DNA of 36,677 bases from Paludibacteraceae bacterium. Lineage in GTDB: Bacteria > Bacteroidota > Bacteroidia > Bacteroidales > Paludibacteraceae. Below are positions 7,563-34,507 of the stretch, in pieces. Every line of letters starts with the position of its first letter. The stretch's first letter is position 1. The stretch is taken from contig JAFTZQ010000008.1 of assembly GCA_017464475.1 (NCBI GenBank), positions 1-36,677 on the forward strand, written 5' to 3'. The translations under genes and the position numbers were made by a program. The notes under the pieces were generated by a model. It had not been told where the DNA came from. It did no database searches and was given only the letters and a program-made list of their open reading frames with translations.

Positions 7563-7564
7563 AA

Positions 7565-9189: not shown

Positions 9190-9221
9190 CAAAGGTAGTA
9201 AAAATAATTGATATGTGCAAA
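9190..9221 (-). promoter_or_regulatory. Promoter of ATPase copy 2
   Basis: Minus strand: TTTG at 9221-9218, 20 bases, TACCTTTG at 9197-9190. About 44 bases here are almost identical to the amidohydrolase promoter region (13621-13664). Confidence 0.8.
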
Positions 9222-9352
9222 TATTTTTGAAACTTTTCCGCAATTTGACGCAATTTTATTCCGCAACTTGGCAATAATTCGTTCCGCAGTTTGGCATAAT
9301 TCCGTTTGGGAAGATGGCGGAGTTTTGGTTGGGAACTTGGCGATATTTGTAT
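9215..9352. repeat. Degenerate 23-bp tandem repeat array 2
   Basis: Five clear 23-base units start at 9238, 9261, 9284, 9307 and 9330; a weak one may start at 9215. The first three begin CCGCA, the last two TGGGAA; all carry TTGGC, ATGGC or TTGAC in the same place. The array ends 17 bases before the TTG of the plus-strand promoter at 9369. Confidence 0.85.
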
Positions 9353-9368
9353 AAATCAAACGAGAAAC

Positions 9369-9399
9369 TTGCATATCTCGAAAAAATATTGTACCTTTG
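9369..9399 (+). promoter_or_regulatory. Promoter of the first ECF sigma module
   Basis: TTG at 9369-9371, 20 bases, TACCTTTG at 9392-9399. Array 2 ends 17 bases upstream, the same spacing as at the second sigma module. Confidence 0.8.
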
Positions 9400-9506
9400 T
9401 GGTATATTTTTTGCTTAAAAAAATGAACGATTTGCGTTTATCGGTGTATGCAGTAGTGAGAGCGCACTCTGAAAACAGAATATTAACCGATAAAATTTCA
9501 ACCAAA

Positions 9507-10718: not shown

Positions 10719-10746
10719 TAATCGTTTGAGCAAAGCAAAATAAGAA

Positions 10747-11319: not shown

Positions 11320-11638
11320 TGAAATTAATCGTGCTGATATGGCTAAGAATAAGACTTTTGAATCCCAACTATCTGCTTCTGCGCGTCGTATGCGCAAGCA
11401 ATCGGAAAGTAATCTCTCTGTTCCCGAGACGATTGTTATTCCGCAAAAACACACCCGTTACTGGGGATGGATAGCGACACCAGCTGCCGCTGCCGTTGGT
11501 CTGCTGATAGGACTTTTCATTCATCGCCCGGCAGAGCGTCAAGACAATTTTACTGTGCCCGTTGTAGTTGCTTCCGACAATTCCGGTCATAGCATTGTGG
11601 AAGACGGTACGGATTATAGTTTGTTAGTATCGCTATAG
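11312..11638 (+). CDS. Small single-helix membrane protein, candidate anti-sigma factor
   Basis: 108 residues: a basic N-terminal part (about 1-48), one membrane helix (WIATPAAAAVGLLIGLFI, about 53-70), and a short outer segment. No known anti-sigma domain is visible. Its 8-base overlap with the sigma gene and its topology fit the usual ECF anti-sigma layout. A second start at MAKNK is possible. Confidence 0.7.
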   Translation: MNNEINRADMAKNKTFESQLSASARRMRKQSESNLSVPETIVIPQKHTRYWGWIATPAAAAVGLLIGLFIHRPAERQDNFTVPVVVASDNSGHSIVEDGTDYSLLVSL

Positions 11639-11661
11639 GACACGCATACATATTAGAAATT

Positions 11662-11688
11662 GGTTCCTCGAACACGTTTCAAGGAGCC
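11662..11688 (+). terminator. Weak hairpin after ECF module 1
   Basis: GGTTCCT / AGGAGCC stem with one G-T pair and a 13-base loop, followed by ACTTTTATT. Probably a minor stop before the stronger hairpin at 11727-11764. Confidence 0.45.
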
Positions 11689-11726
11689 ACTTTTATTGTC
11701 CTGTAAACCAATCATTTACAAAATTA

Positions 11727-11764
11727 AATAAACGGGTAAAATGGAGTGATTTTACCCGTTTATT
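11727..11764. terminator. Bidirectional terminator between convergent operons
   Basis: Perfect 15-bp stem (11727-11741 with 11750-11764), 8-base loop, A/T-rich at both feet. It separates the plus-strand sigma module from the minus-strand amidohydrolase. Confidence 0.85.
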
Positions 11765-11793
11765 ACCCGATTTTTACATTTTGCAAAAGAAAA

Positions 11794-11819
11794 ACCGCTG
11801 GCCAGTGACGGTCAGCGGT
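11794..11819 (-). terminator. Terminator of the amidohydrolase gene
   Basis: Stem ACCGCTGGCC / GGTCAGCGGT with one G-T wobble and a 6-base loop. On the minus strand it is followed by TTTTTCTTTTG. Confidence 0.75.
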
Positions 11820-11846
11820 GAGATAAAATAAGAGTGAATAATGGGG

Positions 11847-15598: not shown

Positions 15599-17950
15599 AT
15601 GAAACACACCATATTTCTTGTGGTATTGTTTTGTTATGCCATTACCGCAGCGGCGAACAATGCCAAAATATCCGGTCGTATCAAAGATGCAAACGACAAG
15701 TCAGCCATCATCGGCGCAACCGTCTTGCTGATGCAGGACACGGTGCAGATAGCCGGAACCACGACAGACAGCAACGGCAAGTTCACGCTTAACGCGGACA
15801 CCGGAAACTATATTCTGGAACTTTCCTATATCGGTTATGAAACAATCCGCATGGCTCTTACCGTGAACGACAATATGCATATAGGCACAATACAAATGCA
15901 AGAAGGCGCAACGGAATTAGGCGAAGTGGTTGTGGAAAGCCAAGCCATTATTCAGAAAGTGGACAGACAGATCTTGCTACCGTCCAAAGAGCAGACACAG
16001 GCTTCCTCGGATGGCGTTTCTCTGTTACAGAACTTGCAAATTCCGCGTATCGTGATTAGCCCGATTGACAACTCCGTCAAAACTCTTTCTGACGAGAGCG
16101 TGCAGCTGCGCATCAACGGAATAGAGGCAAGCACGGCAGATGTAAAAGCCATCAACCCGAAAGATATTATCCGCGTGGAGTACCATGACCAACCGGGCGT
16201 GCGATACAACGGCGCGGCGGCTGTAGTGGATTATATCGTCAAGCACCGCGATACGGGCGGTTCACTTATGCTTGCGGGGTCAAACGGGCTGACATTACCG
16301 GGCATGGGCAGTTATTACGCGGCTGGAAAACTGCATGTTGGCAAATCGTCCATACAAGCGGTGGCAAGCTATTCACCGACTGATATTTATTGGACACGTA
16401 CCAACAATGAGACATACAATTTCACTACAGGCAAGATAGAGAACAACGAAGTAGGCGAACCGACGCGCTATAAGACGTATCCGGTTAATGTCTCGTTGAA
16501 CTACAACTGGACCAACGGCGACAAAAACATGCTGAACATACGCTTGCGTGACAACATGGCATACACGCCTTACGGCTCATCCGACCGCGACAGCCGTTTG
16601 TACCAGCCGACAGATTCGTTTGAGATACACGACCACGAAAATAGTAGCAGTCAGTCGCCGTCGCTTGATATTTACTATCAGCACAATCTGCCGAACAAGC
16701 AGCACTTGTATTTTGATGTAGTCGGCACGTATATCAAAACCAATAGCGACCGCCGTTTTCTCCAAACTCCATTATTTGGCTCCGCTTCAACAGATACAAC
16801 CGATGTTATGTCGCGTGTAAGAGGTGACAAGTGGTCACTCATTGGCGAAGTCATCTATGAAAAGGAATGGGAAAATATCATGCTAACCGTAGGTGCACGG
16901 CATAACCAACAGTGGGTTGAAAACAGATACGCTTCGGTAATAAATGAACAAATGGTAAATGACCAAATCGTAAATGTTTCCATGACCACCGCCGAGACCT
17001 ACGCGTTTGCAGAAATGCGGCATCGCGTGGACAAGTTCTCTTATGTGGTAGGTATCGGAGCCATGCACACTCTCATTGATCAAGCAAGGCAAAAGCAAAG
17101 CACATGGATTGCACGCCCGCAGTTGACCATGAGTTACGATTTCGGCAAAGGCTGGTTCTGGAAATACAAAGGCTATGTGTCCGGCTACCAGCCCTCTTTG
17201 TCGCAGCTGTCCGATATTACACAACAGATTGACAAGTACCAAATGCGCCGAGGCAACCCCAACCTGAAATCCGTCATGTATGTGTCGAATGAGATGGAAC
17301 TCTCGTGGCAGTCCAAACATGTCAATCTCAACCTCTGGGCAAACTACAGATACGACCACAAACCTATTATGGAAGAAACCTTTGAGGAAATTATAGACGG
17401 CTCTGCGTATGCCATCCGGACGTATGACAATCAGCGCGGCTATCACAAATTGCATGTCTCGCCGAGTGTGCAGGTCAAACTGCTTGATAACAAACTGATG
17501 TTCAATGTGACGCCCTTTGTCAAATACATGGTCAGTCAGGGCAACAGCTACTCGCACGAGCATGTCAATTACGGTCTTCAAGCCGGCATTTTCTATTTGC
17601 TAAAGGGTTGGCGGTTCTATGCTGATGTGGTTACCAGTGGACATAACCTATGGGGCGAAACGCTGACCATCGGCGAGTTGAAGCACGATATAGGTATCAA
17701 TTATAACTCGGAGCATTTTGGCTTTGGTATTATGATGGTTAATCCGTTCTCCACTCGCGGTTTTACTTCTGTCACTCAAGACCTTTCAGCCCTTGCACCG
17801 GCGAACAACACAGCCGTTATGCAGGACTACCGCCAAGTGCTGATGCTCAATTTCAACGTCAATCTGGACTTCGGTACCAAGCACAACGAGGGCTGGAAAC
17901 GTATCGACAACGAAGATACCGAAAGCGGTATTTTGAGTGGTACGAAGTAA
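15599..17950 (+). CDS. Outer-membrane beta-barrel protein with carboxypeptidase-like regulatory domain (TonB-receptor-like)
   Basis: 783 residues. Signal peptide to about residue 21; a carboxypeptidase-D regulatory-like domain (about 22-105, ISGRIKDANDKSAIIGATV with TDSNGKFTLNADTGNYILELSYIGYE); a plug-like region (GEVVVESQAIIQKVDRQ...IDGVSLLQNLQIPRIV...LRINGIEA); then a barrel of alternating strands to the end. It resembles the outer-membrane barrel family found beside ECF sigma factors in Bacteroidota rather than a full SusC: no SusD partner is present. Substrate is unknown. It lies after the sigma module terminator, with its own weak promoter-like site, so it may be controlled by the module 2 sigma factor. 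Confidence 0.88.
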   Translation: MKHTIFLVVLFCYAITAAANNAKISGRIKDANDKSAIIGATVLLMQDTVQIAGTTTDSNGKFTLNADTGNYILELSYIGYETIRMALTVNDNMHIGTIQMQEGATELGEVVVESQAIIQKVDRQILLPSKEQTQASSDGVSLLQNLQIPRIVISPIDNSVKTLSDESVQLRINGIEASTADVKAINPKDIIRVEYHDQPGVRYNGAAAVVDYIVKHRDTGGSLMLAGSNGLTLPGMGSYYAAGKLHVGKSSIQAVASYSPTDIYWTRTNNETYNFTTGKIENNEVGEPTRYKTYPVNVSLNYNWTNGDKNMLNIRLRDNMAYTPYGSSDRDSRLYQPTDSFEIHDHENSSSQSPSLDIYYQHNLPNKQHLYFDVVGTYIKTNSDRRFLQTPLFGSASTDTTDVMSRVRGDKWSLIGEVIYEKEWENIMLTVGARHNQQWVENRYASVINEQMVNDQIVNVSMTTAETYAFAEMRHRVDKFSYVVGIGAMHTLIDQARQKQSTWIARPQLTMSYDFGKGWFWKYKGYVSGYQPSLSQLSDITQQIDKYQMRRGNPNLKSVMYVSNEMELSWQSKHVNLNLWANYRYDHKPIMEETFEEIIDGSAYAIRTYDNQRGYHKLHVSPSVQVKLLDNKLMFNVTPFVKYMVSQGNSYSHEHVNYGLQAGIFYLLKGWRFYADVVTSGHNLWGETLTIGELKHDIGINYNSEHFGFGIMMVNPFSTRGFTSVTQDLSALAPANNTAVMQDYRQVLMLNFNVNLDFGTKHNEGWKRIDNEDTESGILSGTK

Positions 17951-18017
17951 TAAAAAGTTCTGCAAGTTAGTAGTTCGAGGAACCAACATATAAGTATTGT
18001 TATGTAATAAGACATCA

Positions 18018-18050
18018 AAAACGCTGCAAGTAACTGATTTGCAGCGTTTT
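18018..18050. terminator. Terminator after the outer-membrane barrel gene
   Basis: Perfect 12-bp stem AAAACGCTGCAA / TTGCAGCGTTTT with a 9-base loop and T-rich downstream sequence. Usable in both directions. Confidence 0.82.
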
Positions 18051-18152
18051 ATGTTATTTCTCTTACTCGTATAGATTCTTAATAATATCTTCTATTTTTT
18101 CGACTTCTTGGCGAGAATTTGACGAACCTTGTCAAAAAAATGCATAAAAAAT

Positions 18153-18177
18153 CGCTGCAACAAATTATGTTACAGCG
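18153..18177 (-). terminator. Hairpin beside repeat copy C
   Basis: CGCTGCAACA / TGTTACAGCG stem with one mismatch and a 5-base loop; on the minus strand followed by ATTTTTTAT. It sits 3' of the tRNA-like end of copy C on that strand, as at copy B. Confidence 0.65.
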
Positions 18178-18190
18178 TCTTATAAATTTC

Positions 18191-18261
18191 GGGTGGAGAG
18201 TGGGGCTCGAAAATTGCGACACCTCGCAATAATCGACAGAGCGCAGCGGCGGAGAACCCAC
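18191..18261 (-). repeat. Copy C of the tRNA-His-like element (core only)
   Basis: 71 bases matching the first 72 of copies A and B: the 20-base tRNA-His 3' end, the 45-base insertion with hairpin TTGCGA-CACC-TCGCAA, and ACCCACG. The ATPase flank found with A and B is absent. It lies 61 bases downstream of the real tRNA-His on the transcribed strand. Confidence 0.85.
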
Positions 18262-18295
18262 GGTCGTGGGCGAGATGCCTCCTATACACACGAAA

Positions 18296-18316
18296 AGAGA
18301 GCCACTACGGCTCTCT
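18296..18316 (-). terminator. Terminator of tRNA-His
   Basis: 8-bp stem AGAGAGCC / GGCTCTCT with a 5-base loop, followed on the minus strand by TTTTCG. Confidence 0.75.
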
Positions 18317-18322
18317 CTTTCG

Positions 18323-18396
18323 GGTGGAGAGTGGGGCTCGAACCCACGACACTCGGAACCACAATCCGATGCTCTGCCAACTGAGCTATGACCACC
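18323..18396 (-). tRNA. tRNA-His (GTG), imperfect acceptor stem
   Basis: Cloverleaf on the minus strand: D stem GCTC/GAGC, anticodon stem TCGGA/TCCGA with loop TTGTGGT (anticodon GTG), T stem GTGGG/CCCAC with loop TTCGAGC, and the extra 5' G (G-1) opposite C73 that marks tRNA-His. CCA is not encoded. The acceptor stem GTGGTCA / TCTCCAC pairs at positions 1-4 and 7 but not at 5-68 (T-T) and 6-67 (C-C). The 3' 20 bases are identical to the repeat copies A and C. Promoter at 18427-18458. Confidence 0.9.
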
Positions 18397-18426
18397 ATGT
18401 CGCCTTTAATTTCTCAAAAGCGGGTG

Positions 18427-18458
18427 CAAAAGTACTGCTTTTTTTTGACATACGCAAA
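18427..18458 (-). promoter_or_regulatory. Promoter of tRNA-His
   Basis: Minus strand: TTTG at 18458-18455, 20 bases, TACTTTTG at 18434-18427, about 30 bases before the tRNA. Confidence 0.75.
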
Positions 18459-18498
18459 TTTTTGAGCAATTATTTTGCAAAAAAGTTATTTTAAGTGC

Positions 18499-19002
18499 CT
18501 ATTCGAAGCGTTTTTTCCAAAAAACAGAGGTTATATCCTCCCATTCATAGGGCGAATCGGGTGAGCCCTGCCCCACCCGCTTATAGAGACGCTGGTTCGT
18601 TTTTTCGCTCTTCAAACCTCCCAACGATTCAATATAAGGACCGAACTTTACAAAATTGAAAGTGGAAAGTGGAAAAGGGAAAGAAGTCTCCGGAGTATAT
18701 GGTCTGCCGGAGTACCATGCCATGCGGAGAGAAGGTTGGCAATCTGCGATATATTCCGCCCAGCGCGCAACTTCTTCCGGGGCTTGATCACCACCCATAA
18801 ACGCCACGCAAGTCACCTGCGAGCCGTAGCGACCGAGAAGGTCGGCGAGCAGTTCTTCGTCCAAGATCTCACCTGTATCTTCCCACAGATGCGGACTATG
18901 GCATCCCTTGCAATGACAAGGACACCCGGAGAGGTTGAGCGCAAGCGTCACCTCCCCGGGAATCTCTTGAAATACAACGTCGTATGAAGCTACTTTTAGC
19001 AT
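18499..19002 (-). CDS. nrdG: Anaerobic ribonucleotide reductase activating protein
   Basis: 167 residues from the ATG at 19002, overlapping the nrdD stop by 7 bases. Radical-SAM protein with the CX3CX2C cluster motif (C27, C31, C34 in SGCPCHCKGC), MGGD near residue 85, and the NrdG-type C-terminus FGPYIESLGGLKSEKTNQRLY. It uses a 4Fe-4S cluster and S-adenosylmethionine to make the glycyl radical on NrdD. Odd point: between WYSGRPY and FVKFGPY there is an in-frame stretch PETSFPFPLSTFN encoded by purine-rich repeats (about 18653-18690), longer than usual at this loop. Confidence 0.95.
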   Translation of the reverse strand: MLKVASYDVVFQEIPGEVTLALNLSGCPCHCKGCHSPHLWEDTGEILDEELLADLLGRYGSQVTCVAFMGGDQAPEEVARWAEYIADCQPSLRMAWYSGRPYTPETSFPFPLSTFNFVKFGPYIESLGGLKSEKTNQRLYKRVGQGSPDSPYEWEDITSVFWKKRFE

Positions 19003-21095
19003 TGCGGAGCTTTCTCTTTCTCTGCATAGTAGCGCTGAGCCGCCTCTTTCTGGCGTGCCTCGGAGAAGTTCGAAACGCGCTTCATGTAGCCGATCACACG
19101 TGTCAGGTAATCCACATTCTTCGAATGGCAATGCGGGCACTCCTTGAGGTAGCGTTTGTCGATATGACCACAGTCGTTGCAAACGGTATTCGGGATGTTG
19201 AAGGTGAAATAGTTACATCCTTCTTGCGCCGCGATGCGGAGAAGTTGGCGGTATTGCTCTTGGCTGAGGTGCTCCTCCAAATTGCAATGGAGAGCCGATC
19301 CACCGGTGAGGTGCTCGATGTACTTGCGTCCGTGGAGACGGAAGCGGTCCAGCACGTTAAGTGACTTATCCTCAACGATATAGAAATAGCTGTTGTAGCA
19401 GTCGCGCGGCACAACATATCCGTCCTCGCGATCCCATTTGGCGTGCTTGACACCCACGTTCTCCGCCGGAATCATTTCGCAGTTGAACATCACATCTTTG
19501 GTGCGATACTCTTTGTTTTTCTTCTCGATAATTCCGAGCAGCTCCTGCACGAAATGCGCGTACTCCGGTGTGTCTTTGATCTCCAGACCGAGGAACTCAG
19601 CCGCCTCAACGAGACCGTTTACACCGATGGTCAGATACTGACGTCCGATGTTGATATATCCTGCGTCGAACAGCGGCAGCATGCCTTTCTCCTGAAGGGA
19701 TTTGAGGTTCTCGTTGTACGCCAGTTGCACCTTGTGCATGAGGTCCACGATGTCCTCGATATATGCCTGATACGGGATGTTATTGCGTACGGCGTATTGG
19801 ATCGCGCGGTTGAGGTTGATGGTCAGCACGGACTTGGAACCTGTGGAGATACCACCTGCTCCGAGCGTGTAGCTGAAACTGTTGTCCGTAATGGCGTTAC
19901 GCAGACGGCAGCAGGACGAAAGCGAATCGGCATTGTCGCTGACGTACGTGAAGAACGAGTGTCCCTTCGAATACATCTCCGCCGTGAAATCGCCGTACTC
20001 TTTGTCCTTGATATCGCCGTTCTCCGCGAGGAGCGCCATGGTCTCAACCGGGAAAGTGAGGACAGTACGGGTACGCTCCTCGTTGAACCAGTTCATGAAG
20101 CGTTTCTGAAGCCAGTTCAGGCTGTCCCAATGCGGCGCTTCGCCGTTCGGGAAACGGAAGTTCTCAAAGAGCGACTGGAAATAATAGCGGTCATAATAGC
20201 TGATATTCCAGAACACGGACTGGAAGTTACGCGCGCCGGATGGCTGGTTCAGCGAATAAACGACCTGCTGGAAGCAATCGCAGATGACGCGGTCGATCGT
20301 ACGCTGTTTCTTGCTCAGATCGACTACCTCGTCCGCACGCTTGTAGTAATCCTCGCCGTACTCCTGCTCGATGAAATAGTTCATATACATAAGGAACTCG
20401 GGCGTAGCGCACGCGCCTGAGAGCATCGAGGAAACCATGAACACCATGTTGATGAATCCGCCGCAGAAGGACTTCAGGTTCTTCGGAGGAGTCGCATTGC
20501 CGCCGATGGATTTGGTGCCACCGATCAGCCACGGATACATGGTGATGGACGCGCAGTAGTTCGCGAGGTTCGTCTCGTCGTTCTTGTAAATAAAATGCTG
20601 GTTGAGCAGGCTCATATAGCGGTCTGCAAGCTCCTTGCCGTACATCTCTTTGACGCGCTCGGTCAGCAGACGGCGGTTCAGACGGATGAAGCCCTGCTTC
20701 GGCAACTCGCCAATCAGAGTAGCGATATTCTTATGCTCAACGTTCGCGTTGGCATCGAATTTCGAACCCTCGGCGGCATTGGATGCCTGCACATAATTCA
20801 TCATAAAATCCAAACGACGCTGCGTGTCGCGATCCTCCGTGTGCTGATGGCGGTAAAGCATATATGCTTTAGCTACCTGATAATATCCTTCCGCCATGAG
20901 CGCAACCTCCACCTGATTCTGAATCTCCTCAACGGTTGCGTTGTTATGAACCCGGAGATGCGAAAGGATGGATGTGAGTGCCTCTTCCGTCGCAAATGCT
21001 CCAACTGCTAAGAATGCCTTCGAGATGGCGTTTTTGATTTTGTCGATGGTAAATAACTCTTTTTTACCATCACGTTTGATAATGTATGTTTCCAT
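18996..21095 (-). CDS. nrdD: Anaerobic ribonucleoside-triphosphate reductase
   Basis: 699 residues from the ATG at 21095 (METYIIKRDGKKELF). The longer frame to 21425 crosses the promoter and is rejected. An ATP-cone lies at residues 1-90, then the catalytic barrel (SITMYPWLIGGTKSIGGNATPPKN, SDNADSLSSCCRLRN), a C-terminal zinc site (C639, C642, C653, C656) and the glycyl radical site Gly669 in RVIGYMKR. It reduces ribonucleotides to deoxyribonucleotides without oxygen, for DNA synthesis. Operon with nrdG. Promoter at 21200-21231; the 105-base leader holds a hairpin. Confidence 0.97.
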   Translation of the reverse strand: METYIIKRDGKKELFTIDKIKNAISKAFLAVGAFATEEALTSILSHLRVHNNATVEEIQNQVEVALMAEGYYQVAKAYMLYRHQHTEDRDTQRRLDFMMNYVQASNAAEGSKFDANANVEHKNIATLIGELPKQGFIRLNRRLLTERVKEMYGKELADRYMSLLNQHFIYKNDETNLANYCASITMYPWLIGGTKSIGGNATPPKNLKSFCGGFINMVFMVSSMLSGACATPEFLMYMNYFIEQEYGEDYYKRADEVVDLSKKQRTIDRVICDCFQQVVYSLNQPSGARNFQSVFWNISYYDRYYFQSLFENFRFPNGEAPHWDSLNWLQKRFMNWFNEERTRTVLTFPVETMALLAENGDIKDKEYGDFTAEMYSKGHSFFTYVSDNADSLSSCCRLRNAITDNSFSYTLGAGGISTGSKSVLTINLNRAIQYAVRNNIPYQAYIEDIVDLMHKVQLAYNENLKSLQEKGMLPLFDAGYINIGRQYLTIGVNGLVEAAEFLGLEIKDTPEYAHFVQELLGIIEKKNKEYRTKDVMFNCEMIPAENVGVKHAKWDREDGYVVPRDCYNSYFYIVEDKSLNVLDRFRLHGRKYIEHLTGGSALHCNLEEHLSQEQYRQLLRIAAQEGCNYFTFNIPNTVCNDCGHIDKRYLKECPHCHSKNVDYLTRVIGYMKRVSNFSEARQKEAAQRYYAEKEKAPQC

Positions 21096-25359: not shown

Positions 25360-26703
25360 ATGAAAAATATGAAAAAGATCTCCTTATTTATTATTTGCGC
25401 ACTCGTGTGCGTATGCGCGCGCGCAGAGCAACAGCGCTATGTGGGCGGCGACATCAGTATGTTACCGATGTACGAGCAGCACAACTCCTATTACAAGGAC
25501 GTGAACGGCAAGAAAATCAGCAACCTGATCACTTGGTTTGCGAATGACTGCGGCTGGAACACCTTCCGCGTGCGTATCTTTGTCAACCCCATTCAGCAAG
25601 CCAAAGGAGCTACCGATCCGTCCGTTTGTCAGGACCTCGCGTATGTCACCGCACTAGGCAAACGTATCAAAGAGGCAGGAGCGTATTTTATGCTGGATTT
25701 TCATTACTCCGACGAGTGGGTGGATGCAACGCACATACAAGCTCCGGTGGCGTGGAAAGGCAAGCCGGATGCGGAGATGGCGGACAGCGTGGCGGCTTAT
25801 ACGCGCCGCGTGCTGACCACGCTCAATGAAGCGAATGCAACGCCGGATATGGTACAAGTGGGAAACGAGATCATGTATGGGCTCTGCGGGATCAAAGTGA
25901 AGCCGTACGACGATGCAAGCAGCAACTGGACGGGCTATTTAGGTCTGCTCAAAGCTGGCTGCAACGCGGTACGCGAACTATGCCCGAACGCGCAGATCAT
26001 TATTCATACCGACCGCCCGACCAACAGCGGATACAATAGTTATTACTATCAGAAACTGATAGACGGCGGTGTGGATTTCGATGTTATCGGACTGAGTTAC
26101 TATCCGTTCTGGCACGGCTATCTGACAAACGAGCAGGTGGTCTCCAAGGGCGACAAGAACAACCTCGTCAAAGCCATTAATCAATTAGCCACAGACTTCC
26201 CGGACAAGAAAGTGCATATTGTAGAATGTGCTTATAATTTCCAGTATTGGCCTACTTCCGGCGTCAATTTCAACACGCAGGATGTGTGGGCATGTTCGGT
26301 AGCGGGGCAATATAATTTCGTCAAAGACCTCGTAGATGCACTCAAGCCGCTGGAGAATGTGGAGGGCATCAACTACTGGTTCCCGGAGGAAGCAGGCAAC
26401 GGCGATGACACCAATTGGAACACAAGTAGCGGAACGGTTATAACAAGCTGGCTCAACCGCGGATTCTGGAACGAGAACAAGACCACTGCAGGTCATACCA
26501 TCAACAAGACCGGGTCTGTAAGTAGCACCAAGACCGCTGCGGATGTATGCGCGCCGTATTATATGGGTAAATTCGTTGACTTTGTACCGCAGGGAATAAC
26601 AAACCCCTCCGCAAACGAAGGGGCTGTTAAACGATTCCGCAACGGTCAATTGGTCATTGAGCGCAACGGCGTATTCTATTCGCCGGACGGCAAAAAGCTT
26701 TAA
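25360..26703 (+). CDS. GH53 arabinogalactan endo-beta-1,4-galactanase, secreted
   Basis: 447 residues from the ATG at 25360, 28 bases after the -7 element; a TTG at 25345 and an ATG at 25369 are also possible. Signal peptide to about residue 22. The GH53 barrel shows GWNTFRVRIFVNP, FMLDFHYSDEWVD, the acid/base Glu170 (QVGNEIMYG) and the nucleophile Glu289 (VHIVECAY), then GINYWFPEEAG. It cuts beta-1,4-galactan side chains of pectin. A C-terminal tail FRNGQLVIERNGVFYSPDG follows a proline/asparagine linker. The 3' end overlaps the convergent VWA gene by four bases. Confidence 0.93.
   Translation: MKNMKKISLFIICALVCVCARAEQQRYVGGDISMLPMYEQHNSYYKDVNGKKISNLITWFANDCGWNTFRVRIFVNPIQQAKGATDPSVCQDLAYVTALGKRIKEAGAYFMLDFHYSDEWVDATHIQAPVAWKGKPDAEMADSVAAYTRRVLTTLNEANATPDMVQVGNEIMYGLCGIKVKPYDDASSNWTGYLGLLKAGCNAVRELCPNAQIIIHTDRPTNSGYNSYYYQKLIDGGVDFDVIGLSYYPFWHGYLTNEQVVSKGDKNNLVKAINQLATDFPDKKVHIVECAYNFQYWPTSGVNFNTQDVWACSVAGQYNFVKDLVDALKPLENVEGINYWFPEEAGNGDDTNWNTSSGTVITSWLNRGFWNENKTTAGHTINKTGSVSSTKTAADVCAPYYMGKFVDFVPQGITNPSANEGAVKRFRNGQLVIERNGVFYSPDGKKL
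26604..26623. repeat. C/G hairpin in the linker before the GH53 tail
   Basis: CCCCTCCG-CAAA-CGAAGGGG inside the coding sequence, just before the tail motif. It lacks a T run. A similar C-rich hairpin lies at the same relative place in the peptidase gene (34585-34601). Confidence 0.5.
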
Positions 26704-29501
26704 TCCTTGAATTTCATAGCCGAAGCCCATTGGAGGTCACTCATGGCAGTCAATGGACGGAGAGACAAAAGCGAGACGATGGTATCGGGCTCGCTTTTTG
26801 ATGCATGCACCCGTGCGGCGGTATTATTCAAGTTGCATAATTTCAGGAGCTGCTCCTCCAGCCTATGGTATTCGTTGCTCTCTGCGGCGGCGAAATAAGC
26901 CACATCGCGCATCTGCTCCGCTTGCAGCGAGAGCGTATTACGTTGCGCAGCAGCCTGCAGCCACTCGGCAAAGCCGGGTTGGTTAATATAGCCGCAAATG
27001 ATAGCCGGGAGCGTCAGACTGTAATCGCCGATGCGGTTGAGAGCGAACTTATGCAAAGCCGAAGCACATGCGTCGAGCTGGATATGTTTCATCAGCTCGC
27101 CAAACGAATACTCGCCTTTGTTGACCAGTTCGACATTCGGCAGGATCTCATTATTCCATACATCGGGCGTACGAATCTGGTCGAAGCTATCTACCGTAAC
27201 CTCTTTTCCGCCCGTTCGCAGCGCGATATTGATAAGTACATCTTCCGCCGCGGAGCCGACAGCCACCGTATTGAGCGGCAACTTCAGTTTCTGCGCAGCA
27301 GCCACGATGTCGTCCAATTCCTCGAACGGACATCCGTCGCTCAGAAGCATGATCATATCGTATTCGCTGGTCTGCGACCACTCGACCGAGCGCTCTATCG
27401 CCGGAATATAATTGGTTCCTCCGCCGGCTTTCAGCGCATCGACAGAAGCGGAACGGCTGGAAGCCACCACATCCTCATCGAACGCAATCCATTCGATCTC
27501 GCCGATGGTTTCTAATTCATGGACGTATTTCTTGAGATCATTCATGTCGGAAGACATACTGCCCGACACATCCAGCAGTAAGAGCATCCGGCGGGTAGCG
27601 AGATTCGTCTGGTGCGCTTGGAATTGCACATTCTCCTCCTCTGTATCGGCGATCGTCTCGTCGCTGTACATCAGCTCTTTTACCAGCCCTTGCACGCTGC
27701 TCTTGTAGCCTTTCTCCAGATCGGGAATACCGATCGTACCGCCATCCACGTCGGAATAGAGTTGTACCGTGGGCACATTCGCTACCAGCGGCATATTTCC
27801 GAACGAACCGGAGAGTAGCGGCTGGAACGCTTTCGTCTGACTGAAATTGAATTCCGGCGGAGTAAGCAGTTTCATCTCGTTCTGGAGACGGACTAACTTC
27901 TTCTCGTGCAACCATCTCATATACTGCTTCATCTCCTCTACGGTCTTCTCGTGCAGTTTCTGGGCTTGCGTATCCAGCCGTTTGCGGATCTCGCATAGTT
28001 TGACACCCACGAACAGGTCTTTGAGCCGCTCAAGACGCTTGATCTTAAGGATGAAGGAAATTGCACCACCCAAAAAGGCAAGCAAGAAAGCGAACATACT
28101 CCACCACCCTATTACGGGGAAGAACCCTGCGCTAACCGCCAATCCGGCGATGCCGGACGAGATGATCGTCGTCCATTTATAGGTATCGAGTTTGTTCATC
28201 TCCTCTTGCAACTGGGTGCGTAGCGCATCGGACGAGAGCGTCATGCCTTGTGCCTTGTTCACCAGCTTGGCTAAATCACCCGGCAGCACGAAAGCCGCAG
28301 GAGGCGTCTCCAAACTCTTACAAGCATCGCTGATCTTGATTTGGAAATGCTCCAGCACTTTCATGCTCTGCGGTAGGCTGATATGCTTGTACCGCGGATT
28401 GCCTTTGTCGCAGAACATCTGGAATACCAACTCCTGCAAGCTATGCGAGCTATCGAAGATGAACTTATGCTGCCGCAGGTTGAGCGAGCGGATAAAATCT
28501 TTCTCAAAGCTGCTCAACTCCTGGGTCACATTGTTGATCACTTTCTCGATATGCAGGGTGTTGTATTCGCGCCAAATAGGGATGATATGATGCAGATGAA
28601 GCGATGTGTGAAACCGGGTGATTTCCATATTGGGGATATGGGGTCCGTCGCTGACGAAGAAGCGCTTGGTATTCATCGGCTTGAAGGTGTCGATGAAACT
28701 CTGGTTGTCGTCCACAAACGCTCGCGCTTCTTTCACATCCAGGAAATGCTCGTCGATATTGGTCGTCAGGTCTTTGAGTACGATCGCGGACAGATTATAC
28801 GCATCGATCTCGCGCTGCACATCCGCTTCAAAGAAGACCGCCGTTGCATTGCCGTCGTAATACTGGATTCCATAGTCGTTGAAGCACTGACCATCGGTTC
28901 GAGCGATATGTAGCGCCGCAATATTGACCGCTTGCTCCGCCGCTTTGCGTCCATCTTCCGTCATGGAGGACTGGAGGAAAAGGATCTTCTCGAACGGACG
29001 GTCATTCATCTGCAGCCTCTGCATAGCAGCCAGATCGTTCAGAAAATCGCTCACTCCTTTCGTCACCGTCTTGTCATCCACGGTCACCGACGCAGGCCGC
29101 AGCAGAATACCGTACATCCGCACGCTGCTGATGGAGAACCAAGGGCGGTTGATATCCGCCATGCGTTGCTCCTGCAGGTACTTCGCCCAGGTATGAAAAC
29201 GCGTTATGGTCTTCGGCTGGGTCACGTCGCCCACAAAGATGACGTTGATGCTGTTGCCTTGGTTGCTGGTGAAGGCAGGGATTAACTTCTCCGCCTCCGG
29301 GCTACTCATGGAGAGCCGTTGGAAGGCGATCTCGTTCAGTTGCTCTTTCGTCATCCCTTCCGCTTTGCCGTCCGTGATATGGAAGAACTTCAGCGGAGCG
29401 GGACCCGTCGTGGTATTTTGCAGCAACGATTCCCAATACGACTGGAAGAACGACTCGCACGCATCTTCTTCAAGGAAATTTACAATCCAAAAAGGGGTCA
29501 T
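26700..29501 (-). CDS. VWA-domain protein with two membrane helices, third gene of the tubulin-like operon
   Basis: 933 residues, no signal peptide. N-terminal domain (1-400) of unknown type; two close membrane helices (about 443-463 and 467-486); a charged, coiled-coil-like stretch (487-545); then a von Willebrand factor A domain (about 638-770) with a complete MIDAS: DVSGS (644-648), Thr696 in GGGTNY and Asp722 in LLSDG. The C-terminus (780-933) is helical. With two helices and no signal, both large parts should lie in the cytoplasm. Intact MIDAS suggests metal-dependent binding of a partner, probably the tubulin-like protein encoded 21 bases upstream. Part of the same operon. Confidence 0.9.
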   Translation of the reverse strand: MTPFWIVNFLEEDACESFFQSYWESLLQNTTTGPAPLKFFHITDGKAEGMTKEQLNEIAFQRLSMSSPEAEKLIPAFTSNQGNSINVIFVGDVTQPKTITRFHTWAKYLQEQRMADINRPWFSISSVRMYGILLRPASVTVDDKTVTKGVSDFLNDLAAMQRLQMNDRPFEKILFLQSSMTEDGRKAAEQAVNIAALHIARTDGQCFNDYGIQYYDGNATAVFFEADVQREIDAYNLSAIVLKDLTTNIDEHFLDVKEARAFVDDNQSFIDTFKPMNTKRFFVSDGPHIPNMEITRFHTSLHLHHIIPIWREYNTLHIEKVINNVTQELSSFEKDFIRSLNLRQHKFIFDSSHSLQELVFQMFCDKGNPRYKHISLPQSMKVLEHFQIKISDACKSLETPPAAFVLPGDLAKLVNKAQGMTLSSDALRTQLQEEMNKLDTYKWTTIISSGIAGLAVSAGFFPVIGWWSMFAFLLAFLGGAISFILKIKRLERLKDLFVGVKLCEIRKRLDTQAQKLHEKTVEEMKQYMRWLHEKKLVRLQNEMKLLTPPEFNFSQTKAFQPLLSGSFGNMPLVANVPTVQLYSDVDGGTIGIPDLEKGYKSSVQGLVKELMYSDETIADTEEENVQFQAHQTNLATRRMLLLLDVSGSMSSDMNDLKKYVHELETIGEIEWIAFDEDVVASSRSASVDALKAGGGTNYIPAIERSVEWSQTSEYDMIMLLSDGCPFEELDDIVAAAQKLKLPLNTVAVGSAAEDVLINIALRTGGKEVTVDSFDQIRTPDVWNNEILPNVELVNKGEYSFGELMKHIQLDACASALHKFALNRIGDYSLTLPAIICGYINQPGFAEWLQAAAQRNTLSLQAEQMRDVAYFAAAESNEYHRLEEQLLKLCNLNNTAARVHASKSEPDTIVSLLSLRPLTAMSDLQWASAMKFKD

Positions 29502-29522
29502 AACAGAAACGATTTTATGCTA

Positions 29523-32500
29523 TTATAACGAACTGATTGTTTTTTCTATCACTTCTACAAATGTCTTGTCGCCGGGGTTGCTCTGTCGCCGCCAGATGAG
29601 GAGGCAGAAGGCGAACGTACCCACTCCGCCATCCATTGATTTCAGCAGGCGCACTTTCGCCTCGTCGCGTACTGCCATCAGCGAAGCATTCATCTGCTCA
29701 CTTACGCGGATGTCAAATTTCTGCTCCAAGAAATCTGCACCAATGAACATATTCTCCGGAATGGTCATCAGTTGCTCCACAAAAGCATTGCATTGTTGTG
29801 TGTGCTCTCGGTCGAACTCGTAGTTCTGCACGCCACTGTTGTCGATCGACAGATATTTGGTCTTCGGATTGAGGATAGCCGGACGGAGTTGCAGATGCGC
29901 AGTGATGTTATTCGGATCAACCCACAAGGTAATAAACCGATTTGCCTCGCTTGTCGCCGCGGCTGGAGCCAAATCGATGCCGAGCAGTTGCAGCATCTCC
30001 GGTGTCATGCCGGTTGTGTCTACTTCTGCCGCAGCTCCGGAGAAGCCGAAGAGGTTGTTGTATGCGTTTCTGTCTTTCTCCCACAGCAGGTTGACCACAT
30101 GTTGGTAATAGAGACACTTGACAAGAGACTCCAAACGACGACTAGCCAGCTGCTCCGTCAGACTGCCTTGCGCTGCCGCTGCGCTGCTCTCCGACTTAGG
30201 CAGCGTCAGACCGTACTCGTTGAATGCGCTGTGGATGTGGCAGCCGTAGAACTGACCGCGTACGCGCTCCAGATACGGATCTGACATATAGAAGGTCTTG
30301 TAACTCTGGTAGTACTTGTACATATTGAACTCGAATCCAGCCGGCATGCGCATCACCATGAAGCGGTCGTTCATCGCGGAATCTTGGATGAACTGCTGCT
30401 CTTTGCTATTAGAGTTATAGCCAAGCGATTTGGCGAGTTCCTCGTTGTTGCCGACAAACATCAGACGCATATTGGACGGAACCGACACGTCTCCGCGGAG
30501 CGGGAAGAATACCGGCACACGGCTGCTGTCCATGAAGCTGTTGAACAGATCTGCCGTACGTTTGAACGCCTTCGGCAGCAGAGCAGGATTTTGGATAGCG
30601 TCGCTCAGCTCCAAGCCGATCCATTGCCCGGCAGACGTGCTGGTATCATTCACAATCACTTCTACCACATGCTTAATCGGGTTGATGATCAGCGAATCTT
30701 TATTGTTCGGCAGCGAGATCTGTTTGGATTTGATAATATTGATAAACAGGTTATTATCCGGATCTATACGACCTATAATATCTTTCAATCCCTTGCCGGA
30801 CGCAGAGGTGCGCATCGGTACGCGGATCTTCTCCAGACCGCGGGTGATGTCCTGCTGGCCGATCACGCTCTCTTGGTAGAGCTGGTCGAAGAAATTATTC
30901 TCTGCCCAATCGGTATTGTCGCTTCCTGTTGCCAGTTCCGCCAAGGACGGCAGATAAACGGTCATGATATCGTCTTCCGTTGCGCGGAACTCTTTCGCGA
31001 GCGTTGCGTACATATCCTTATAATCTGTTCCGTCGTTCTCCAGCAGTTTCTGAAGATTGCGGATGCCGGCATAATTGGTATTGTCGCCCTTACGCAGTTT
31101 CTCCAGATAGCCGGACGGCGATTCGGTCAGTTCGCGAATGATCTGTACGGCAATGGTCAGCGTGATAGCGCGGGCTACCGCATCCTTGTATTTCTTGAGT
31201 GCTTGGCTCATCTCCGCTTTCTTGAGCGCCATCAGCAGACCACCCTTTGCGTACGTCGCACAAGCTGCTTTGGCGGCATTCACCTTGCCCGTCGCATCCG
31301 GCAGTAACGTGCTCACTATATATCGGCATAGCGGCTCCAGATAGAAATCATCGACGAAATTGAGCAAATCGTAGGCGTTATTCAGACCGTTCATCAGAAT
31401 AAACTCGTTCACCCGTTTGTCGATCTCGCCTGTGATCATGGCATATACGGCCTTCTTCAGTTCCTCATAGTTCTCCGTAGTATAGAGACGGTCTAACTTC
31501 AGGCTGATCGCGCGTACCACATCCGACGAGATCTCATTCGGATCATATTTGGTAGCATTGTTGACTGCCGAATAAATCTGGTGCTCCAGCGCGTCCGCAT
31601 CTGCCGTCGTATTGTAGCGGTAACTCATATCGCTATCCGTTACCGTCTCGTTGAGAGAGAATAGTTTCTTCAATATCGCATTTTGAGCAAACTCCACTTT
31701 CTTTTGGTCGAAGTCGGACGGACGGCGTTGATCCAGCAGACCATAATTGATGACCTCATAGAGCGCGCGGCGCGTCAGGTACTCCTTCAACTCCTTGTTC
31801 GCTTTCTTGATCGCGCGGAAACCATATCCCACCATCTGCGATGTGATGCCCGAACGAGTATCGCTCTTCTGCAGCAATTCCGCTAAGATATTGCTCAGGT
31901 TGCTCTTCACGAAAGCGCGGCCGTTACCGGTATTCAGATAATAGATCATCTCCGCGATCGTGGGATAGAATTGTTCCACTTTCATCTTCGAGCCGAAGTT
32001 ATTCTCCGCGCACACAGGAATCAGGAATTGGTAGAGCGGGAAATCGTAAATCTCCGTTCCGGCTGCCGTCGGACGAACTGCATAGGGTTCGAACGTCTTA
32101 CCGTTGCCGTTCTCGAAGTTGGAGCGGAAGAAATTGATCTCCTCCATGCACGAATAGCCATTCAGCCTATGATTCGGGTTCGTACTGTTGAGATCCACGA
32201 ATGTCTGCGGCATATAGAGCACCAGTTTGACGTTCGGCTCGCCGTTCGCCACATGGTGCGCCAGACGGTTGATCATATACAGCACGTCGAGCGTCATGGA
32301 GCTACCTGTTCCGCCGCAGGAAGAAGCGATCACCCATATATCCACATCGCGGCGTCCGCTGTCGTCCGGCGTCAGCTCGCGGAAGCGGTTGATCTTGGCG
32401 GTCAGCTCGCGCTCCATTGCCTCGTAGTAATTATAGATTCCGAATCGACCCACATTACGCTGCGCCGTGGCGCCATCGCTCAGCGGGTGGTTCGGCAACG

Positions 32501-32804
32501 TCATGTGACCGGGTTCCTGAGAAATAGCCCATTCCAGCAAACGCTTGGTGTTCTCGTTCGGACGGTCGGTCGTCTTCGCGCCGTTGTAGATCGCCAGAGG
32601 TACCGTCGGACCCATGTCTACGAAATCAGCAGCAGGAATTACAATCGAGTCCGAATTGATTCGGCTGTACGTAAACATATCCGTATCGACGTACGTGAAT
32701 GCGTAGTCATCCGGATTGTAGTTGGGGTCTTTCTTCAGACGTGTTGAAAGGCTGGCTACGGTTTGCAATCCACAACCGCCTAAACCGATAAAATAAGTTT
32801 TCAT
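29523..32804 (-). CDS. FtsZ/tubulin-superfamily protein (Tubulin_2-like)
   Basis: 1093 residues, about three times the length of FtsZ. The GTP-binding half is clear: GLGGCG (7-12) and the acidic DTD (40-42) after the first Rossmann strand, a GATAQRNVGR segment (111-120), and the tubulin signature as SSCGGTGSS (161-169) after the strand WVIA. No canonical T7 catalytic loop can be pointed to, so GTP hydrolysis is not assured. The C-terminal ~700 residues are helical and unlike FtsZ. Such proteins are placed in a predicted membrane-remodelling group with VWA proteins. Middle gene of a three-gene operon, 21-base gaps on both sides. Confidence 0.88.
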   Translation of the reverse strand: MKTYFIGLGGCGLQTVASLSTRLKKDPNYNPDDYAFTYVDTDMFTYSRINSDSIVIPAADFVDMGPTVPLAIYNGAKTTDRPNENTKRLLEWAISQEPGHMTLPNHPLSDGATAQRNVGRFGIYNYYEAMERELTAKINRFRELTPDDSGRRDVDIWVIASSCGGTGSSMTLDVLYMINRLAHHVANGEPNVKLVLYMPQTFVDLNSTNPNHRLNGYSCMEEINFFRSNFENGNGKTFEPYAVRPTAAGTEIYDFPLYQFLIPVCAENNFGSKMKVEQFYPTIAEMIYYLNTGNGRAFVKSNLSNILAELLQKSDTRSGITSQMVGYGFRAIKKANKELKEYLTRRALYEVINYGLLDQRRPSDFDQKKVEFAQNAILKKLFSLNETVTDSDMSYRYNTTADADALEHQIYSAVNNATKYDPNEISSDVVRAISLKLDRLYTTENYEELKKAVYAMITGEIDKRVNEFILMNGLNNAYDLLNFVDDFYLEPLCRYIVSTLLPDATGKVNAAKAACATYAKGGLLMALKKAEMSQALKKYKDAVARAITLTIAVQIIRELTESPSGYLEKLRKGDNTNYAGIRNLQKLLENDGTDYKDMYATLAKEFRATEDDIMTVYLPSLAELATGSDNTDWAENNFFDQLYQESVIGQQDITRGLEKIRVPMRTSASGKGLKDIIGRIDPDNNLFINIIKSKQISLPNNKDSLIINPIKHVVEVIVNDTSTSAGQWIGLELSDAIQNPALLPKAFKRTADLFNSFMDSSRVPVFFPLRGDVSVPSNMRLMFVGNNEELAKSLGYNSNSKEQQFIQDSAMNDRFMVMRMPAGFEFNMYKYYQSYKTFYMSDPYLERVRGQFYGCHIHSAFNEYGLTLPKSESSAAAAQGSLTEQLASRRLESLVKCLYYQHVVNLLWEKDRNAYNNLFGFSGAAAEVDTTGMTPEMLQLLGIDLAPAAATSEANRFITLWVDPNNITAHLQLRPAILNPKTKYLSIDNSGVQNYEFDREHTQQCNAFVEQLMTIPENMFIGADFLEQKFDIRVSEQMNASLMAVRDEAKVRLLKSMDGGVGTFAFCLLIWRRQSNPGDKTFVEVIEKTISSL

Positions 32805-32825
32805 GTGTTATATAGGTTTTGAAAT

Positions 32826-34403
32826 TTATGAAATCGTGATTACGTATGTGGTGATACCTTCCGCTATCTCCAGACGCACCATCGGCGCGCGTTTGTAACG
32901 GAAGAGGAACGCCGTCTTGCCCACCTGCAGCGTGGCGATCTTGTAGTCCGTCATCTCATTGATGATATCGGCGAAATCGCCGCTCTCCAGCGTGCCGTAA
33001 TAACCCGTTTTGCGGAAGATATTAAATATCGGGTTGTACCGCCGCGGCTCTATCTTCAGCCGCCATGAAGCGCCGGGGACACTCAAATCCCCACCCTCGC
33101 CGATTGTGTATGGCAGGAAATCCGTATCTCCGTTGAATGTATCGATGCCGTTGCTGCCTTTGCGTTTGACTTGGATGCTCGTCATACGCTTCTGCGGTTT
33201 CTGCATCGCTTCCCATATCAGAGAAATGATGATCAGCACAAATACAAAAATGATCAACGCCCAAGCCCATTTCGGCAGCGTCGAGTTCCATACTCCTATG
33301 TGCGGCACAGCGATCGTCTCGCGGCGGCTCAGGTTAACTGCCTCCTCCGACTTCGGATTCACTTTGCATAGACCTTGCAGTTTATGGATTTCCTCCGCAT
33401 ATTTCGACTCGTAGTTCGCCGTGATACATACGTCCGCGGAGTCAATCTGGATAAACGACGGATACCATGTCGGCTCTTGATCCACGGTATAAACCGCCTC
33501 GGCGGTGAAGCCGGAGATCAGGTTCGTGTCGGAGTTTTGGAGCGTCATCTCCACGCGCCTGTCGTGGATGGCGATTCCCAGCTTGCGGTTCGCCAGCCAC
33601 TGCTGCCAGTCCGACTTCAGCATGCTGTTGATCTTCTGCGCACGGATCTCATCGACAATATGTCCGAACCATTGTTTGAGGATCGCAGCATCGCTCGCCG
33701 GTTGGTAATCAATCGGACCGAAGATAGCGTCCAACTCCGGTTTGATGACCGCCTCCGGATGGCTCACACCCTTTTGCGCCAACTCTACGCCGTACTTGCA
33801 CATCGCACCGCGGTGTTTCTCCGTCAGCAGCGGTTTCAGACTTGCCCAGTCCTCGGCGCGTTTGTCAAATTTATTCCGATGCGTCCAATACTCGAAATCC
33901 GTCAGCAGATAGACGAACGTCAGATCGCTGCTGCTCACCACATTCATCGCCTCCAGCACACGGCTCGTCATCGTGAACATATCCGATCCGTCGTGAGGGT
34001 CGTTGCGACGCAGGAACTTAAACTGCTGAGAGTTGATCGCATCGATGATAGAGCGACGAACCATCGGCTCTATCGTGATACATTTGATGGAGTTCAGATA
34101 ATTGGTGTTGTTTTCGTCGCAAACCACGATGATCGTCACTTGGTCGTTCTCCGGAATCGCATTGACGAACGTCTTCAGACTCTCGCGCACCACCTGCTCG
34201 TATTGCGTCATCGAACTGGAAATGTCGATCGCAAAGATATAATGAGCATTGCGGCTCTCCAGCCGGTCGCCGTAACGCTGCATCAGCAACGGGTACTCTT
34301 TCTCCATATTGCTGAAATCGTGATCTTGCGCCTTTGCAGCCGGTAGAACCGACAGCAACGCCATCATACAAGTAAGGAAAAATTGAAATTTACTGTTTTT
34401 CAT
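32826..34403 (-). CDS. Periplasmic VWA-domain protein with one membrane helix, first gene of the tubulin-like operon
   Basis: 525 residues. Signal peptide to about residue 25 (AAKAQ). A VWA domain follows (about 53-235) with MIDAS DISSS (60-64) and LLTDF (Asp169). A second domain runs to about 370 and one membrane helix lies at 378-398 (WAWALIIFVFVLIIISLIW). Residues 400-525 are basic then mixed and should lie in the cytoplasm, where they could meet the tubulin-like protein. This topology would link the periplasm to a cytoplasmic polymer. The promoter at 34428-34458 drives all three genes. Confidence 0.9.
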   Translation of the reverse strand: MKNSKFQFFLTCMMALLSVLPAAKAQDHDFSNMEKEYPLLMQRYGDRLESRNAHYIFAIDISSSMTQYEQVVRESLKTFVNAIPENDQVTIIVVCDENNTNYLNSIKCITIEPMVRRSIIDAINSQQFKFLRRNDPHDGSDMFTMTSRVLEAMNVVSSSDLTFVYLLTDFEYWTHRNKFDKRAEDWASLKPLLTEKHRGAMCKYGVELAQKGVSHPEAVIKPELDAIFGPIDYQPASDAAILKQWFGHIVDEIRAQKINSMLKSDWQQWLANRKLGIAIHDRRVEMTLQNSDTNLISGFTAEAVYTVDQEPTWYPSFIQIDSADVCITANYESKYAEEIHKLQGLCKVNPKSEEAVNLSRRETIAVPHIGVWNSTLPKWAWALIIFVFVLIIISLIWEAMQKPQKRMTSIQVKRKGSNGIDTFNGDTDFLPYTIGEGGDLSVPGASWRLKIEPRRYNPIFNIFRKTGYYGTLESGDFADIINEMTDYKIATLQVGKTAFLFRYKRAPMVRLEIAEGITTYVITIS

Positions 34404-34427: not shown

Positions 34428-34458
34428 CAAAGGTACAACTTTTTTTTCATATACACAA
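34428..34458 (-). promoter_or_regulatory. Promoter of the VWA-tubulin-VWA operon
   Basis: Minus strand: TTG at 34458-34456, 20 bases, TACCTTTG at 34435-34428, 25 bases before the ATG. Confidence 0.8.
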
Positions 34459-34485
34459 GACTTTGTATATTTTTATACAAAAAAA

Positions 34486-34501
34486 GAGACCCGAAGGTCC
34501 C
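34486..34501 (-). terminator. Terminator of the S37-like peptidase gene
   Basis: On the minus strand GGGACC-TTCG-GGTCTC, a stem capped by the very stable C(UUCG)G tetraloop, followed by seven T residues. Confidence 0.88.
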
Positions 34502-34507
34502 TTTTCT

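Follow-up and report, generated by a model that had tools for sequence, protein, structure and literature searches.

Results

A Tubulin_2 gene between two genes for von Willebrand factor A proteins

The window analysed here is a stretch of 36,677 nucleotides from a rumen bacterium of the family Paludibacteraceae (GenBank assembly GCA_017464475.1, contig JAFTZQ010000008.1), whose listing of open reading frames (ORFs) contains, within positions 26700-34403, an operon of three minus-strand genes separated by gaps of 21 and 21 bases (Table 1). In order of transcription, these genes encode a protein with a von Willebrand factor A (VWA) domain, here called VWA1, a protein of the Pfam family Tubulin_2, and a membrane protein with a C-terminal VWA domain, here called X-VWA. 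The comparisons reported below suggest that X-VWA belongs to a family of operon partners (X) whose N-terminal domain is probably a degenerate tubulin.

Table 1. Features of the operon region, in positions of the window
Feature	Coordinates	Strand	Basis and remarks
VWA1	32826-34403	-	ORF, 525 amino acids
Tubulin_2/FtsZl1 protein	29523-32804	-	ORF, 1093 amino acids
X-VWA	26700-29501	-	ORF, 933 amino acids
Promoter TTG-N20-TAnnTTTG, TACCTTTG	34428-34458	-	Pattern scan; upstream of the operon's first start codon (34403)
Terminator-like hairpin and T-run	34482-34505	-	By eye; after the upstream peptidase gene, which it parts from the promoter

An earlier note, made from the sequence alone, had described the middle protein as FtsZ/tubulin-like, and Pfam bears this out: the match to Tubulin_2 (PF13809) covers residues 5-352 with 120.1 bits (E 1.6e-34; cut-off 27), that to PF00091 reaching merely 16.8 bits (cut-off 33). 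The motif GLGGCG of the T1 loop lies at residues 7-12 and SSCGGTGSS of the T4 loop at 161-169; across an alignment of 11 sequences neither loop varies in its core glycines, and GxGGxG together with GGTGS was found in all 33 tubulins of the VWA1-tubulin-X loci introduced below. On these sequence features the middle protein is a member of the FtsZl1/Tubulin_2 family with predicted GTP-binding glycine loops. As the genome encodes a separate FtsZ (PF00091 on contig C4, 153.8 bits), it is not the division FtsZ. The tubulin domain is followed by a C-terminal region of about 700 residues, whose fold is unassigned by sequence. In a sequence search against solved structures, the tubulin alignment drew three rows, none better than E 0.57, and the VWA1 and X alignments drew none.

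The operon is conserved in relatives

VWA1, tubulin and X-VWA follow one another in this order at all seven loci with a tubulin more than 50% identical (the window and, in our own numbering of loci, L025-L029 and L039), the X-VWA gene of L025 being interrupted (5226-7969; two overlapping ORFs and a missing stretch; L075 is the same record). Linkage conserved at 7/7 loci excludes a chance arrangement and upholds the gene order put forward in the earlier note; the composition and linkage of the operon, as described, are in our view virtually certain. The tree supports the window subtype (7 rows) at 100/100 and places beside it, as its sister, a larger subtype (28 rows, 100/99) in which X is followed by a transglutaminase-like gene; together the two form a joint clade of 35 rows (97/97). 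VWA1, tubulin and X occur together at 33 of the 35 loci of this clade, the tubulin of the other two (L034 and L151) lying at a contig end. For these 33 loci (L075 left out, L034 and L151 without VWA1 in the stretch, and L025 represented by the longer X fragment of 729 amino acids), the three proteins have pairwise distances that are correlated at 0.935, 0.974 and 0.979, none of 2000 permutations being as high for each, a result that common descent by itself would also produce.

VWA1 combines a signal sequence, a predicted periplasmic VWA domain, one transmembrane helix at about residues 382-400 and a cytoplasmic tail, which is conserved in an alignment of seven sequences. For the signal sequence and the topology we relied on visual inspection and a simple hydropathy scan, from which the earlier picture of a periplasmic VWA1 with a single helix and a mostly cytoplasmic third protein with two helices appears likely. 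The residues of the metal ion-dependent adhesion site (MIDAS) of VWA1 (D60/S62/S64, T144 and D169) are invariant across the seven aligned sequences of the window subtype, and those of X-VWA (D644/S646/S648, T696 and D722) across six aligned sequences, so that the sites are intact in both flanking proteins, as had been claimed. The VWA domains of the two window proteins stay under the Pfam cut-offs (best E 0.0042 and 0.0018); relatives of VWA1 do exceed them, namely those of L074 (VWA_2, 38 bits) and L042 (29.2 bits). The VWA1 family has 35 members in the fetched loci.

The third protein as a VWA-bearing member of the X family

X-VWA consists of an N-terminal domain (about residues 1-260), a helical linker, a transmembrane hairpin (about 446-487), the segment QPLxxGSFG (560-568) and the C-terminal VWA domain. 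In the hydropathy scan the window protein passes the cut-off at one helix only (463-481), and its L026 counterpart at both (446-464 and 469-487). In an alignment with X, an N-terminal domain of the same kind, a membrane hairpin and, next, a QPLxxG[ST]F-like segment are recognisable; beyond these, the VWA domain of the window subtype takes the position of the helical C-terminus of X. The motif D.SGSM was present in 7 of 33 X proteins, and Pfam VWA families matched 4-5 of the 28 X members scanned, five of which belong to the window subtype. Similarity beyond this subtype is low (12-16% in the rows of the second subtype), and a first profile of the third protein scored four X proteins at 12.7-16.5 bits; homology between X and X-VWA across subtypes is therefore based on position, architecture and weak scores taken together. 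With a profile of 28 X rows (five of them from the window subtype), 35 main matches were obtained in 34 of 300 genomes of the family, all of them on Tubulin_2-bearing contigs and at neighbouring coordinates. By sequence comparison, then, the third protein represents the partner X with a VWA domain added, a domain from which X is free elsewhere in the family. The earlier note had seen in it a second VWA protein taking the place of OmpA or of the GTPase; the alignment, the distribution of D.SGSM and the co-occurrence of X and Tubulin_2 on contigs do not support that description as it stood.

The N-terminal domain of X resembles tubulin

When compared by eye, strands and helices of the X N-terminal domain run parallel to those of Tubulin_2 (X/Tubulin_2: INVIFVGD/IWVIASSCGG; MYGILLRP/KLVLYMPQ; FLNDL/CMEEI; FEKILFLQ/LYQFLIP). 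Profile comparison with hhalign gave, for 34 X rows against 67 tubulins, P 4.6e-4 (probability 33%, 173 columns, score 36.7) and, for 37 X rows, again against 67 tubulins, P 3e-5 (probability 73%, 196 columns, score 45.7). Both matches lie in the expected register, and none of 200 column shuffles scored as high (best 20.6 against 36.7 and 25.0 against 45.7); a reversed-profile control scored 14.8, and control profiles (VWA1, transglutaminase-like, c4, c6, the C-terminal part of the protease partner and the X C-terminus) gave P values of 0.077-0.53. Against the 28 more distant tubulins alone the N-terminal domain reached P 4.2e-5. The choice of the additional X rows (L070, L073 and L074) had rested on the place of their genes, next after that of the tubulin, and on hydrophobic segments; similarity to tubulin had played no part in it. 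The papain-like partner of another operon type (a clean set of 13 sequences) also matched the tubulin profile (P 4.5e-4; 0/200 shuffles as high). At the position of the GTP glycine loop, X has a GDxT[EQ]-like segment instead (22/33).

A possible intermediate was found in another family of the phylum. At L153, a VWA gene (42.4 bits) and a tubulin gene (192.6 bits) precede a partner of 1071 amino acids with a T1-like GLGERG start (AMLLGLGERGVEAA) and, by eye, a hydrophobic hairpin; this partner matches Tubulin_2 at profile positions 221-353 with 14.9 bits (E 0.016, under the cut-off of 27) and the X profile with 10.9 bits. A rank test of scores with the tubulin profile separated 54 partners from 90 other proteins, each 600 amino acids or longer (p 2.6e-14); we give this value little weight because it is inflated by the relatedness of the rows and two of three control profiles also fell below p 0.05.

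Several results weigh against a tubulin origin of X. With the 39 same-subtype tubulins alone, the comparison was not significant (P 0.064). Smaller profile sets gave weaker values, namely P 0.11 for A1 against A2, P 0.4 for ten X rows, P 0.0019 for 14 X rows, P 0.015 for the protease-partner set and P 0.11 for a mixed set, the last two being early sets that included two unrelated proteins from L031 and L032. The signal is clear only with the family-wide X set, in which the L025 fragment is counted twice (as L025 and as L075). Tubulin_2 was not among the best 25 of 48 Pfam families listed for 28 X members, and the control profiles of the rank test themselves gave p 0.027, 0.13 and 1.5e-4. X might accordingly be another Rossmann-like alpha/beta domain unrelated to tubulin, matched through a convergent alternation of strands and helices, and both the same-subtype comparison and the Pfam listing speak for this; the 196 collinear columns, a score above 200/200 shuffles and above the other families tried, and the L153 intermediate make it unlikely. 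We think it probable that the N-terminal domain of X is a degenerate form of tubulin whose glycine loop for GTP binding has been lost.

Promoter and adjoining genes

The motif upstream of VWA1 is of the form TTG-N20-TAnnTTTG, which we take to be a promoter type of Bacteroidota. A scan limited to the N20 spacing found it 13 times in the window, against 0.48 expected from shuffles, and none of the 13 lies within 26700-34403, in agreement with the single promoter that the earlier note had described. The hairpin between this promoter and the preceding gene is absent from the list returned by a scan for consensus terminators. The motif also stands upstream of each of two related, close-set minus-strand genes elsewhere in the window (6066-7346 and 7869-9164; 426 and 431 amino acids). 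The genes adjoining the operon encode an S37/S28-type peptidase and a GH53 glycosidase; as noted before, neither a GTPase nor an OmpA gene adjoins it in the Pfam scan of neighbours.

Distribution and exchange

The operon is patchy even among close relatives. The X-VWA profile matched 6 of 178 genomes of the genus, and Tubulin_2 was found in 18 of 101 genomes of the genus (17 over the cut-off), 8 of 16 from a second genus of the family, 60 of 300 genomes of the family (57 over the cut-off) and 13 of 395 genomes of the phylum (10 over the cut-off), many of the surveyed genomes being incomplete metagenome-assembled genomes. Used as a single query, the window tubulin had matches in 2 of 295 genomes of the order, one of the two being the genome it comes from.

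The interrupted copy at L025 seems to be a mosaic. Compared in windows of 300 bases, it resembles the window copy over VWA1 (88-98%) and over the end of X-VWA; from the closing part of the tubulin gene into the beginning of X it resembles L026, and there six windows from operon position 3597 onwards show 90-98% identity between L025 and L026 and 75-89% between the window and L025 (four of the six at 75-82%). The nucleotide identities suggest, for this one case, that the tubulin C-terminus was exchanged along with the beginning of the X N-terminal domain, as would fit a tubulin-X interface.

Associated modules and genomic context

For a wider survey, 36 stretches from the family were fetched. 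The order VWA1, tubulin, X and a gene of the transglutaminase cluster was seen in 20 of 20 loci of the first batch (VWA1 truncated at the contig end in L122) and in L144-L146 of the second, and in 14 of the 20 the same gene of about 345 amino acids comes next. Of the 33 loci that combine VWA1, tubulin and X, 27 have a gene of this cluster and 6 lack it (the window, L025-L028 and L039); the transglutaminase name rests on Pfam for L042, L029 and L073, and on BLAST clustering for the others. Six stretches (L136-L139, L147 and L148) contain papain-type operons, and L149 gave no match to the tubulin profile used on the family stretches. A papain-like domain (PF00112) was over the cut-off in all three partners scanned (L030, L106 and L147), and 13 such partners keep Cys (12/13, the miss being a cut copy), His (13/13) and N-x-W-G (13/13) at what are presumably the papain catalytic positions.

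Further arrangements were encountered in the course of the survey. A second, short Tubulin_2 protein (about 400 amino acids) is encoded downstream of the protease-type operons of L031 (17438-18655) and L032 (16003-17202). At L045 (9099-13942) and L044 (6037-10698), a short tubulin-like protein is paired with a long partner (479 + 1133 and 425 + 1123 amino acids, respectively; Tubulin_2 27.5 bits for the short protein of L045), a possible further type of tubulin operon. A protein of 1187 amino acids with kinase and HSP70 matches is encoded downstream of the Tubulin_2 gene of L072 (3423-6986), and a PBP-OmpA protein after that of L067.

Three loci place the operon near TIR or CRISPR genes. (i) At L029, genes for a transglutaminase-like protein (PF04473, E 5.7e-4, just under the cut-off), a TPR-TIR protein (TIR_2, 2.6e-17, over the cut-off) and a weakly PP2C-like protein (E 0.028) lie directly downstream of X-VWA, at 16329-19671, with gaps of at most 20 bases; a homolog of the transglutaminase-like protein was not found in the window's own genome (71% complete; search without a positive control). 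(ii) At L039, three genes of one cluster lie upstream (1932-6680), two of them with TIR-like N-termini (PADLOC E 4.7e-8 and 6e-4). (iii) At L152 (1-17524; G549:C8), a VWA1-tubulin remnant, with a VWA1 stretch of 66 residues 86% identical to that of L074 and a tubulin stretch of 470 residues at 81%, is flanked by type III-B genes (Cmr, Cas10, Cas6) on one side and type I-B genes (Cas3, Cas5, Cas7, Cas8) on the other. Around the window operon itself, the Pfam scan of neighbours showed no defence genes. As single loci without a background count, these neighbourhoods only shift the balance.

The GH53 site as a possible defence hotspot found no support: of ten GH53-ortholog stretches fetched, seven were covered by the Pfam scan (L108, L114 and L115 lying outside it), and their 20 scanned proteins belong mostly to ordinary families (transporters, regulators, peptidases, lyases), three having no match and a papain-like protein at L106 being the exception. 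This L106 locus (2761-12016; G400:C16) carries a different Tubulin_2 operon, with a tubulin of 938 and a papain-like protein of 1211 amino acids, beside the same GH53 gene.

Discussion

Operons of this general kind have been described before. Makarova and Koonin (2010) defined the FtsZl1/Tubulin_2 family with its vWA operons and proposed a role in membrane remodelling, leaving undecided whether FtsZl1 forms filaments and how the complex is organised (PMC2875224). The window operon shares with theirs a Tubulin_2 protein with T1 and T4 loops, a long C-terminal region, a vWA gene and membrane partners, and differs in that the GTPase and OmpA genes, frequent there if not universal, do not adjoin it; a degenerate tubulin partner with a membrane hairpin was not found described in the sections of that paper covered here. 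Kaur et al. (2020) reported systems from Firmicutes in which two tubulin genes occur together with two genes for vWA proteins, of which one is extracellular, and class tubulin operons with two vWA genes among NTP-dependent conflict systems (PMC7159879), so that the combination of two VWA proteins with a tubulin is not new as such. Their GTPase-centric GAP1-N2 systems resemble ours in joining tubulin (two tubulins in the Firmicutes versions) to two vWA proteins, one of them outside the cytoplasm. Unlike them, the window operon and its adjacent genes, which were the part of the genome searched, contain no GTPase, GAP1 or FNIII, and the second tubulin is here apparently degenerate, membrane-bound and fused to a VWA domain or, in another type of operon, to a papain-like one. 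In the literature covered, including passages of PMC9871819, PMC5898192 and PMC9210963 and excluding supplements and most subscription papers, a degenerate tubulin partner was not found in such operons, and a search directed at pseudo-tubulins yielded no paper.

In bacterial division, FtsZ is tied to the inner membrane by a tether partner of the FtsA/ZipA type. The arrangement considered here is alike in that a partner would hold a cytoplasmic polymer of the tubulin superfamily to the inner membrane, and differs in that the tether would itself be a tubulin relative, in a genome with its own FtsZ.

We give about an even chance to an inner-membrane complex of an intact Tubulin_2 protein and a membrane-hairpin pseudo-tubulin, X, with exchangeable outputs, acting in a response to stress or conflict. 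Intact and degenerate tubulins would assemble together at the membrane, as a heteromer or a capped filament, and GTP turnover would set a threshold. By way of its one helix and its cytoplasmic tail, VWA1 may report on strain or on a ligand in the periplasm or envelope. The output would be delivered by an exchangeable module, VWA in the window subtype and a papain-like protease in another, and elsewhere could come from the adjacent genes for transglutaminase-like or TIR proteins. The likeliest role, ahead of general cell shaping, is in our view a regulated response to envelope stress or to conflict (anti-invader), at a probability slightly short of even; the conflict reading is modestly favoured over membrane remodelling because of the patchy presence of the operon and its enzyme-type partners.

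A number of observations weigh against a role in defence. The DxSxS pattern of VWA1 is present in 27 of 33 relatives (in L130 at a stray position) and missing from 6 of 33, one of them the truncated L122, though the operon is kept. The GH53 neighbour is common to 5 of the 6 in-genus loci (the window and L025-L028), L039, as well as L029 (a record outside the 178 genomes), being flanked by other neighbours. Viral contigs, searched with two peptide patterns (90 stretches, of which none was confirmed), yielded no relatives, nor did phages or plasmids, at the sensitivity of these searches. PADLOC had no match for the TIR, PP2C-like and transglutaminase-like genes of L029; in PADLOC-DB the three window proteins gave only a Cas11a match at E 0.022.

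The alternative that survives best is the membrane-remodelling cytoskeleton of Makarova and Koonin, a Tubulin_2 polymer that would bend or organise the inner membrane with VWA1 and X as anchors and no defence role. It accords with the predicted membrane helices of VWA1 and X, with the separate FtsZ, by which the Tubulin_2 protein is not the division FtsZ, and with the proposal made for the family in 2010 (PMC2875224). A basic shaping function would nonetheless be oddly carried by a minority (6/178) or half (8/16) of close relatives; a papain-like domain on the partners of another operon type and TIR genes near two loci also fit it poorly, and a reviewer of the 2010 paper queried how a cytoplasmic FtsZ-like protein would join periplasmic and outer-membrane proteins (PMC2875224). 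We consider it rather unlikely. Still less probable is the model of the earlier note, an adhesion or surface-contact sensor in which the VWA1 MIDAS would grip an envelope or extracellular ligand and pass force to a cytoplasmic assembly, which the note would have anchored by the third protein: the MIDAS residues invariant in seven sequences of the window subtype, the single predicted helix with its conserved tail and the discussion of VWA domains as force sensors for PilY1 (PMC9210963) are in its favour, but no outer-membrane or pilus gene adjoins the window operon in the Pfam scan of neighbours, and some relatives have the operon but no longer the DxSxS pattern.

Returning to the two-tubulin complex, we tentatively suggest, with a confidence somewhat short of even, that the Tubulin_2 operons of Bacteroidota encode transmembrane, GTP-thresholded two-tubulin devices of immunity or of the response to envelope damage, in which the intact tubulin and the pseudo-tubulin would form a heteromeric switch and the C-terminal or downstream modules (VWA, papain-like protease, transglutaminase-like, TIR) have been swapped between lineages. 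If this is true, these bacteria would possess a pair of tubulins, one GTP-binding and one a pseudo subunit, with a natural tether, which could be tested directly, and the interchangeable protease-type or TIR-linked outputs would offer a handle on whether such systems serve defence or the cytoskeleton.

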